A DNA stretch of 40,053 bases from a virus, in the IMG/VR virus record IMGVR_UViG_3300037156_000070, positions 1 to 40,053 of that record. One strand, given 5' to 3'. A program made the position numbers and the translations under genes. Below the pieces are notes generated by a model, which was not told the DNA's origin, ran no database searches, and saw nothing but the letters and a program-made list of their open reading frames with translations. Within the stretch, counting starts at the first letter, position 1; every line of letters begins with the position of its first letter. This document shows positions 5,361-39,995 of the stretch, piece after piece.

Positions 5361-5643
5361 TATACAGGTCCATATTTTTGCAGTGATATGCCGTATAGTT
5401 TGTGCCTGTATTAAATTGTCTGCAATTTCTAATGGGGTTATTTAAGTAGTCTTGTAGGCTACAAAAACTCAAGAAGATTATTGCTGGTATTATCGTATAA
5501 TATATTAAATATTTTATTCGAGCGTACTCCTTAATTTACGTCTACATTATCTCACTTATATATTTAAAGTCAAAGTGGTATAATAGATGCATACGCTCAG
5601 ACGGCTAATGCTATCTGAGTTTTTTATTAAAAAGGAATAACAC
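5361..5643. other. Noncoding intergenic region with promoters and inverted repeats
   Basis: No convincing gene is present on either strand. Visible elements are a 7-bp inverted repeat ATACAGG/CCTGTAT (starting at 5362, second arm near 5403), a near-perfect palindrome TTGTAGGCTACAA (about 5452-5464) and a TATAAT at 5496-5501. Downstream of it is GCGTACTCC (about 5522-5530), the reverse complement of a ribosome site used elsewhere in this genome. The promoter-hairpin at 5576-5625 comes last. A short untranslated RNA from 5496 is possible but weakly supported. Confidence 0.4.
5576..5625 (+). promoter_or_regulatory. Extended -10 promoter with terminator-like leader hairpin (family member 2)
   Basis: TG-G-TATAAT occupies 5576-5584. 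The leader then shows GCTCAGACGGC at 5595-5605, stem CTCAGA (5596-5601) with TCTGAG (5614-5619), and six T at 5620-5625. The stem is identical to member 1 while the loop differs (TAATGCTA against TTAGACC), so the stem and the ACGGC core are what is kept. It drives the coiled-coil and giant polyvalent genes, whose first ATG lies 18 bases past the T-run. Confidence 0.68.
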
Positions 5644-20548: not shown

Positions 20549-20619
20549 TTTATTACCACCCTTATCTGGCCTAGATAGCCGTTTTTAGTTTGTTGTTTTA
20601 TATATTGTTGTACTGTCAT
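20545..20619 (-). CDS. Leader peptide, 24 aa, first ORF of the leftward operon
   Basis: The product begins MTVQQYIKQQTKNGYLGQ. It has a strong AAGGAGTACGC ribosome site (GGAGTACGC is 20621-20629 on the plus strand), and its TGA overlaps the next start (ATGA). It is the first translated sequence after the promoter at 20650-20679. That ribosome site is complementary for nine bases to the small RNA loop at 20720-20731. Confidence 0.65.
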   Translation of the reverse strand: MTVQQYIKQQTKNGYLGQIRVVIK

Positions 20620-20649
20620 AGCGTACTCCTTGCTTTAATTGACCCTCTA

Positions 20650-20687: not shown

Positions 20688-20696
20688 TGGTATAAT
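20688..20696 (+). promoter_or_regulatory. Extended -10 promoter of the hairpin RNA and tRNA
   Basis: TG-G-TATAAT begins at 20688, with the hexamer at 20691-20696. It faces away from the leftward promoter, with transcription expected from about 20703. No good -35 is seen, which the TGn extension can offset. Confidence 0.7.
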
Positions 20697-20702
20697 TATA
20701 GT

Positions 20703-20759
20703 TCAGTGTCATTAGGATGATTGCGTACTCCAACTCTTTTAACCTAATGACACTTTTTT
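20703..20759 (+). ncRNA. Small hairpin RNA with anti-ribosome-site loop
   Basis: A perfect 11-bp stem GTGTCATTAGG (20706-20716) with CCTAATGACAC (20743-20753) ends in six T (20754-20759), giving a terminated RNA of about 57 nt. The 26-nt loop carries ATTGCGTACTCC (20720-20731). It is the exact complement of GGAGTACGCAAT at 21235-21246, the ribosome site and first two bases of the start codon of the 21245 gene. Nine of these bases also match the sites before 22528 and 20619. It could be a trans-acting translational repressor or, more simply, a terminator with a chance loop. Confidence 0.55.
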
Positions 20760-20761
20760 GT

Positions 20762-20835
20762 TGGCTTGTCATCTAATGGTAGGATAGTGGACTTTGACTC
20801 CATCAATCTAGGTTCGAGTCCTAGCGAGCCAGCCA
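20762..20835 (+). tRNA. tRNA-Gln (anticodon UUG)
   Basis: A full cloverleaf can be drawn. Acceptor TGGCTTG pairs with CGAGCCA. The D stem is ATC/GAT and the anticodon stem GTGGA/TCCAT around loop CTTTGAC (anticodon TTG). The T stem is CTAGG/CCTAG around TTCGAGT, and the discriminator G is followed by an encoded CCA. It reads CAA codons, which are very common in the Gln-rich internal and linker proteins here. It is the only tRNA found. Confidence 0.92.
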
Positions 20836-21244
20836 TTATAAAAAGAGAAAACCCCTATTGCTAGGGGCCTTGATCGTGTTCTCTTATAAGCGACTCAGCC
20901 GTTGACTTAATATTAACAATACGTATAATAGATGTCAACACTTGATCGTGTTCCGGACAGTTCAAATGTTAGGCCGGTTAAACCTAACAACCACACTCAA
21001 ACTCATGTAACGAGGGCGAGACTAGTACAGTTAAGGGAGAAAAGGACTTGTTACATAAGTTCTTCTTAACTATGTATTTGATCTTTTAATTATTAATTGC
21101 TTCATTAAAAAACAGTACCAGCCTAAATCTATGCTTCAAAGAACAAGACTAGATAATCTCTTCTAACTTATAAACTATATACTTGACTTATACAACAAAA
21201 GCATATACACTATACAGGTCATTAATAAATACAAGGAGTACGCA
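20836..21244 (+). promoter_or_regulatory. Structured intergenic leader, no gene seen
   Basis: This 409-base stretch has no convincing ORF but several ordered elements. Just after the tRNA a long stem-loop pairs TTATAA..GAGAA (20836-20849) with TTCTCTTATAA (20879-20889) around CCCCTA/TAGGGG (20852-20857, 20862-20867). CTTGATCGTGTTC occurs twice (20869-20881 and 20941-20953), flanking the promoter at 20902-20929. Hairpins TGTTAGG/CCTAACA (20967-20989) and a two-part stem AGTTAAG..AAGGACTT with AAGTTCTT..CTTAACT (21029-21071) follow. It may be an operator-plus-leader region or a replication origin. Confidence 0.5.
20902..20929 (+). promoter_or_regulatory. Promoter of the rightward early block
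   Basis: TTGACT (20902-20907), 16 bases, TATAAT (20924-20929). GTTGAC (20901-20906) and GTCAAC (20934-20939) form an inverted repeat around it, and the second copy of a 13-base repeat with AACAC/GTGTT symmetry lies at the expected start. These are plausible repressor or activator sites. The transcript would have an untranslated leader of about 300 nt. Confidence 0.65.
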
Positions 21245-21490
21245 ATGACTAAATCAACTAAAAAAGTAGAGAAAACTACTGAAAAAACAACTAAGGTAAT
21301 AAATAAAGATTCCCTTCTAAAAGTATTAGACTGGGTAGCAAAGATAGTAGCTGGAGTATTCTTCATAGCATGTACCTATGGATATGTCTCAGGTTGGTTA
21401 AAGACTCATCAGAACAACTATGATCTAAGCCGAATTGGTGCTATTCTAGTTGTTAGTGTTGCGCTATACCTTTTCTTACGAAAAAAATAG
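21245..21490 (+). CDS. Small membrane protein with two helices
   Basis: The 81-residue protein has a Lys/Thr-rich start (about 1-24) followed by two membrane segments (about 28-48, VLDWVAKIVAGVFFIACTYGY, and about 64-78, IGAILVVSVALYLFL) and a basic end RKK. It is the first rightward gene, with ribosome site AGGAGTACGC, the predicted target of the hairpin RNA upstream. Holin, antiholin or exclusion roles are all possible; none is shown. It precedes a secreted wall enzyme. Confidence 0.62.
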   Translation: MTKSTKKVEKTTEKTTKVINKDSLLKVLDWVAKIVAGVFFIACTYGYVSGWLKTHQNNYDLSRIGAILVVSVALYLFLRKK

Positions 21491-21502
21491 TAACACCACA
21501 AG

Positions 21503-21961
21503 ATGAAAGACTTTTTTAAGTGCCTAACTATAGTGGCCTTTGTCGCTCTGATCAGTGTCTCACTATCTAGCCCCAAGGCCACCTCATCTCTAGCAAAACC
21601 TAAACCAAAGGTTATTGCTTCAGTTATTAAGCCGGTTATCGCACCGGTAGCTGTAGCTCCAATAACTTATCCAATAGGTTGTGCTAACTATTTATCACTT
21701 GTCGATCAATATAACTGGAATACTCACGTTGCTATGGCAATCATGCAGGCCGAAAGTTCCTGCAACCCCTATAGCGTATCTAACGTATCAATCAACTATG
21801 ACGGTGTAGCAGACTATGGCCTGATGCAACTTCATGGAGTAGACATACTTGATCCGGCTCAGAATGTAGCTTATGCCTATTATCATAAGTATTTACCAGC
21901 TCATGGATTCACGCCTTGGAGTACATATAACTCCGGTGCATACACAAAATACTTGCAATAA
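21503..21961 (+). CDS. Secreted lytic-transglycosylase-like lysozyme
   Basis: A 152-residue protein with an N-terminal signal or anchor (about 4-23, FFKCLTIVAFVALISVSLSS) and a linker to about 58. Its domain resembles the SLT/lysozyme fold: HVAMAIMQAESSCNP (catalytic E84), YDGVADYGLMQLHGVDILDP and NVAYAYYHKYLPAHGFTPWSTYNSGAYTKYL. Family members cleave the glycan strand of peptidoglycan. C60 and C87 could form a disulphide outside the cell. Its place in the early block, far from the lysis cassette, suggests a separate role, for example local wall opening or superinfection control. The start has only a weak ribosome site. Confidence 0.75.
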   Translation: MKDFFKCLTIVAFVALISVSLSSPKATSSLAKPKPKVIASVIKPVIAPVAVAPITYPIGCANYLSLVDQYNWNTHVAMAIMQAESSCNPYSVSNVSINYDGVADYGLMQLHGVDILDPAQNVAYAYYHKYLPAHGFTPWSTYNSGAYTKYLQ

Positions 21962-22365: not shown

Positions 22366-22528
22366 TGCCAAAGTTAAAAGAGCTAGGCGTTTTCAGCTCC
22401 ATGAACCTTCGAGTTCGTTATTTCATACAAATGGTTGGCTATTACGTAGAGCTTATATTGCGGAAAGAGTAAGGCGAAAGAATATCCGGATCAAATATTA
22501 TATAGAACTTAAAAAAGGAGTACGCTAA
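22352..22528 (+). CDS. Small basic protein, 58 aa
   Basis: This gene overlaps the groES end by 14 bases in another frame and shares TAATG with the following gene. It fills an otherwise empty 162-base gap. The product is strongly basic (MLKHSAKVKRARRFQLHEP..., WLLRRAYIAERVRRKNIRIK) and may bind nucleic acid. The next gene's ribosome site AGGAGTACGC lies inside its last codons. No family is recognised. Confidence 0.6.
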   Translation: MLKHSAKVKRARRFQLHEPSSSLFHTNGWLLRRAYIAERVRRKNIRIKYYIELKKGVR

Positions 22529-39930: not shown

Positions 39931-39979
39931 TGTTATAATTTAATTAATAGCTCAGACGGCTCAGACCTCTGAGTTTTTT
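39931..39979 (+). promoter_or_regulatory. Right-end copy of the promoter-hairpin (member 1)
   Basis: TG-T-TATAAT (39931-39939), stem CTCAGA (39951-39956) with TCTGAG (39968-39973) and six T (39974-39979). It differs from the left copy only at neutral positions. Confidence 0.7.
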
Positions 39980-39995
39980 ATTTTAAAAGGATCAT

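Follow-up and report, generated by a model that had tools for sequence, protein, structure and literature searches.

The element described here lies between two divergent operons of a 40-kb viral record, the whole of which (40,053 nucleotides, hereafter the window) was analysed, and which encodes GroES/GroEL, RecE- and RecT-like proteins and a terminase. Its features are collected in Table 1. An extended −10 promoter is followed after about 9 nt by a hairpin whose arms are 100% complementary over 12 bp, and a transcript from this promoter would probably start near 20703. The earlier note had described a promoter, an 11-bp stem and a T-run; the promoter and the T-run stand, and the stem is 12 bp long by sequence. 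The hairpin has a calculated fold energy of −20.2 kcal/mol (z −6.5). It resembles an intrinsic terminator in its perfect stem and T6 run, but just 5 of the stem pairs are GC and the loop is 26 nt long, and a terminator scan with limited loop length did not pick up the hairpin.

A tRNA-Gln gene, which had been missed before, begins 7 nt past the end of the stem and has no visible promoter other than 20688-20696. As this gene adjoins the hairpin, the hairpin is the 5′ leader, and the sole visible one, of the only transcript with a visible promoter that is able to make the tRNA. When the joint transcript is folded, the hairpin and the tRNA form separately, side by side. A hairpin RNA of 57-59 nt would be the expected product whether RNase P cleaves the transcript or transcription terminates at the T-run.

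Table 1. Positions of the hairpin, the tRNA gene, the copies of the repeated 9-mer and the neighbouring genes in the window
Feature	Position	Strand	Basis or detail
Extended −10 promoter TGGTATAAT of the putative hairpin/tRNA transcript	20688-20696	+	TATAAT 20691-20696 after TGG
Hairpin, 12-bp perfect stem, 26-nt loop	20705-20754	+	arms 20705-20716 / 20743-20754
Loop segment ATTGCGTACTCC, exact complement of 21235-21246	20720-20731	+	sequence
T6 run, terminator-like, after the stem, directly 5′ of the tRNA	20754-20759	+	sequence
tRNA-Gln, anticodon TTG, CCA encoded	20762-20835	+	ARAGORN; Rfam tRNA 59.5 bits
Candidate promoter TTGACT-17-TACACT of the 21245 operon	21183-21211	+	consensus scan alone
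Best candidate target, GGAGTACGC + AAT: SD and start-codon A,T of the 21245 gene	21235-21246	+	
81-aa protein, two hydrophobic stretches	21245-21490	+	open reading frame
Transglycosylase-domain gene, next after 21245	21503-21961	+	SLT domain E 2.4e-7
GGAGTACGC, SD of the 24-codon leader ORF 20619-20545(−)	20621-20629	−	
GGAGTACGC, SD of the operon-internal gene 22528	22517-22525	+	
Fifth GGAGTACGC, past a promoter-like stretch, no start codon behind it	5522-5530	−	

To the right, the 21245 protein gave no family match; it is holin-like by position, ahead of the transglycosylase-domain gene, and could be a holin. To the left, the start at 20619(−), previously taken for that of a normal gene, opens a leader ORF of 24 codons, MTVQQYIKQQTKNGYLGQIRVVIK, which is ATGA-coupled to the 20548 gene. 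Five of its 24 residues are Gln (4 CAA; binomial P ~0.006), and it is divergent from tRNA-Gln(UUG). Beyond the tRNA gene, the direct repeat CTTGATCGTGTTC, at 20869-20881 and 20943-20955, flanks overlapping divergent promoters at 20902-20929(+) and 20938-20910(−). A minus transcript from the latter would stop at a terminator at 20871-20848 and may thus form a further short RNA, with complementarity to the 5′ end of the plus transcript.

Promoter-hairpin cassettes in the phage group

The promoter motif TGNTATAAT occurs six times in the window, each time on the plus strand and within the 2974 intergenic bases, and the assignment of 20688 to an extended −10 promoter class is strongly supported. 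Four of the six sites (126, 5576, 20688 and 39931) directly precede a hairpin and T-run. We defined a cassette as TGNTATAAT followed by a hairpin and T-run that begin within 28 nt. Over the window and its relatives, cassettes are found at 13 of 47 TGNTATAAT sites, compared with 0.53 expected from shuffles, and TATAAT without the TG leads to a hairpin and T-run at 5 of 158 sites. The window cassettes at 126-190, 5576-5625 and 39931-39995 precede genes of the structural region; copies also occur in the relatives L005 and L038/L040, and the cassettes of relatives often run straight into an SD and a gene. The 20688 element conforms to this definition, and its hairpin thus belongs, by architecture, to the promoter-proximal hairpin cassettes, which are common in the phage group. 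It is set apart by its loop of 26 nt (3-16 nt in the other cassettes), by a longer stem and by leading into a tRNA. Separately, 126-190 and 39931-39995 are near-identical in promoter, hairpin and the start of the same HNH-type ORF, which suggests a terminal or assembly-related repeat near the two ends of the window.

Similar arrangements are known in other phages. In lambda, the late promoter pR′ is followed by the terminator tR′, giving the short 6S leader RNA; the likeness lies in a promoter and then a terminator with a short leader RNA, whereas here the hairpin begins within ~10-20 nt of transcription initiation and a Q-like factor is not known. The PeSL elements are said, in work by Arbiol (2010) and Comeau (2014), to consist of a promoter near a terminator-like stem-loop, repeated across the phage genome. 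PeSL promoter/stem-loop cassettes of T4-like phages are also named in PMC4503421. Our cassettes share with them the close tie of promoter to stem-loop and the genome-wide repeats, but promoter type and phages differ, and the gene shuffling attributed to PeSL is not indicated here.

These cassettes bear directly on the role of the 20688 hairpin. It may serve the tRNA-Gln gene alone, as a promoter-proximal leader or attenuator that sets how much polymerase reaches the tRNA (by attenuation, possibly with an antiterminator) or protects the 5′ end, with the loop motif being a copy that has no function in trans. The excess of hairpins behind TGNTATAAT, the position of the other window cassettes before structural-region genes and the lack of any other visible promoter for the tRNA all speak for such a role, and we consider it a real possibility, nearly as likely as the antisense action proposed below. 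It leaves unexplained why the loop should be 26 nt long and should hold the sole 12-nt stretch exactly complementary to the nearest first gene downstream, and the 20705-20754 stem lacks the GCTCARACGGC found in the stems of the other window cassettes.

Complementarity of the loop to the 21245 ribosome site

As the earlier note had stated, all 12 nt of the loop segment 20720-20731 are complementary to the 21245 ribosome site, and nine of these bases are shared with the sites before 20619 and 22528. The shared 9-mer, GGAGTACGC, occurs five times in the 40-kb window against 0.06 expected, and no shuffle gave five copies; one copy, at 5522-5530(−), had escaped notice. Three copies are SDs (20619−, 21245 and 22528), one lies in the loop and one has no gene. 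The 9-mer is thus common to several leaders, and the loop copy could be incidental, which counts against an antisense role.

The complementarity could also have arisen by chance, as an SD-like string that happens to fall in a hairpin loop. The matched core holds GGAG, which is common to many leaders, and the extended SD AAGGAGTACGCWATGAC serves as a plain SD, with no loop partner, in 12 apparently unrelated viral records. However, shuffled loops reached a complement of at least 12 nt to any of 50 leaders in only 31 of 5000 cases (0.6%) and to the 21245 leader in 1 of 5000 (0.02%), and random genomic 26-mers did so for any of the 50 leaders in 6 of 4438 (0.14%). These figures are optimistic, as the match was picked by eye from the whole window; even so, a 12-nt match at ~0.1-0.6% per 26-nt loop makes chance very unlikely in our view.

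A further point against an antisense role is that the loop reads CTCCAA, not CTCCTT, so that the complement stops short of the full AAGGAG. Two other accounts of the sequence were rejected. Reasoning from the usual 16S 3′ end, pairing of the host anti-SD does not explain TACGC. Nor does the hairpin hold up as an inverted copy of the entire 21245 leader, with GTCATTA...TAAA...GGAGTACGCAAT in common. The alignment score of the hairpin with that leader was equalled by 1 of 500 shuffles with the 9-mer kept, and without the 9-mer by 367 of 500; support is therefore confined to the 9-12-nt block.

Another possibility is that a phage protein binds GGAGTACGC, in DNA or in mRNA leaders, so that the loop and 5522 copies would be sites of this kind and not antisense elements. 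The 9-mer ranks among the most repeated intergenic 9-mers of the window, two of its five copies are not at genes, and a divergent promoter pair lies between the copies at 20621 and 20723; a second divergent pair is flanked by the CTTGATCGTGTTC repeats (20869, 20943). Against this, three copies sit exactly at SD spacing, an operator inside an operon (the 22517 copy) would make little sense, GGAGTACGC is not palindromic and no regulator was found. We therefore regard a protein site as rather unlikely.

The energetics of pairing single out one target. The duplex of the hairpin RNA with the 21245 leader, calculated at −31.4 kcal/mol, was the best among 50 leaders; when the hairpin was shuffled around a constant 12-mer, 12 of 1000 sequences paired with the 21245 leader as well, and 26 of 1000 did so when the flanks of the leader were shuffled. 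Past the 12-mer, UAAUGAC in the 3′ stem arm can pair with GUCAUUA in the leader. The 12-bp loop/target helix has an energy of −18.8 kcal/mol, to be set beside accessibility costs of 0.9 kcal/mol for the target 9-mer, 3.7 for the target 12-mer and 4.5 for the loop 12-mer. The net gain of the co-fold over the separate folds is a modest −7.0 kcal/mol (equalled by 68 of 1000 controls), since pairing requires part of the hairpin to open. Duplexes with the 20619 and 22528 leaders, which share only the 9-mer, were no better than shuffles (560 of 1000 and 979 of 1000 as good, respectively), and the 22528 leader is outside the best twelve. Repression of three leaders at once was rejected on this comparison. 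The proposal of a timing switch that acts on both operons through their first genes is likewise not borne out, and 22528, taken for such a first gene, is internal to its operon. What survives of the proposed antisense action is the part that concerns 21245, for which 12 contiguous pairs, display in a loop and the best of 50 duplexes make pairing plausible and, for this leader alone, convincing.

We tentatively prefer the reading in which the tRNA-leader RNA uses its loop to base-pair with the 21245 ribosome site, in the manner of the sar and c4 antisense RNAs, and thereby lowers translation. Transcription from 20688-20696 would open with the stable hairpin and continue into tRNA-Gln, and a short RNA of ~57-59 nt may be freed if the polymerase terminates at the T-run or if RNase P removes the leader from the tRNA. 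Its 26-nt loop would then form 12 bp with the 21245 mRNA at the ribosome site, extending to GUCAUUA in the leader, and thereby reduce the synthesis of the small, holin-like membrane protein encoded ahead of the transglycosylase-domain gene.

Relatives and known phage RNAs

The proposal rests on one genome. A search with the 21245 protein found no relatives, whereas the 20548 protein led to one, G001, whose main proteins are 54-75% identical and which shares the left recombination operon in the opposite orientation; the early region of this nearest relative holds no tRNA and no similar hairpin. About 20 more records, reached through RecT, GroEL and terminase, have the structural module in common, and none carries GGAGTACGC, a tRNA or the hairpin. 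Known phages gave no DNA match to the region, a scan for the loop-plus-stem pattern gave no match, and genome contigs searched by terminase and by the cassette pattern yielded nothing. The 12 viral records with AAGGAGTACGCWATGAC show no sign of kinship to this phage, and no complementary loop was found in them. Conservation of the loop, whose lack the earlier note had listed among three refuting outcomes, thus receives no support from the relatives; as the early module is mostly not shared, with early regions that are mostly non-homologous, the comparison gives conservation little chance to show, and its negative outcome is a lack of support more than a disproof.

The relatives contain other candidate RNA elements. 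The groES leaders of two of them share an RNA (L004:11812-11897(−) and L009:486-565(+)) made up of an SD mimic, AACGGAAG, a stem of 22-24 bp that differs in sequence between the two, and a loop, CTTCCGTT, complementary to the mimic and, with G-U pairs, to the real SD (AAACGGAGG / AATGGAGG). This RNA has the look of a translation switch, either two-state or pseudoknotted, for a phage chaperonin operon; it has no Rfam match and is absent from the groES leader of the window. In the L004 early region, near L002 4670 and 4631, a direct repeat, CTATTCAATGTAGA, flanks a hairpin downstream of a promoter.

By mode of action, sar of phage P22 and c4 of P1/P7 would be the nearest known RNAs. The c4 antisense RNAs of P1/P7 reportedly pair with a translation start region, as Citron and Schuster are said to have described in 1990. 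That study is among those cited in PMC2864571 for the c4 antisense RNAs, and sar, an antisense RNA of 68/69 nt, has been proposed to pair with the translation start of a phage mRNA (PMC12197685). The likeness is that of a short phage RNA proposed to act on the translation start of a phage mRNA, and the long complementarity to such a start that marks RNAs of the sar/c4 type is present here as 12 exact nt at 21235-21246. In contrast, the RNA described here is a tRNA leader, would pair through a single loop and has a predicted function, and it shows no sequence or Rfam relation to sar or c4: in the Rfam search the tRNA alone was found, even with E up to 1, and the c4 covariance model RF01695 gave no match. 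Repression of a phage endolysin has been proposed for the antisense RNA PAK_P4as15 (PMC12197685), and the likeness is that of a phage RNA possibly delaying lysis; however, PAK_P4as15 is ~550 nt long and cis-antisense, whereas the ~57-nt hairpin is encoded away from its candidate target, whose role in lysis is only presumed. The hairpin would join the phage antisense RNAs if its function were shown.

A further extension is that one promoter has a dual output, giving both tRNA-Gln and, once its leader is cut by RNase P or terminated, an antisense hairpin that restrains a lysis-type gene, so that tRNA supply and lysis timing would be coupled. We cite the glutamine-rich leader peptide of the left operon alongside this extension, which we consider quite unlikely.

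In summary, the promoter-hairpin cassettes can serve as a simple guide to promoters in this phage group, whatever becomes of the antisense role. If the loop does act on the 21245 leader, an uncultured phage group would carry an antisense RNA as the leader of a tRNA; the timing of another phage gene could in this way be linked cheaply with tRNA production.
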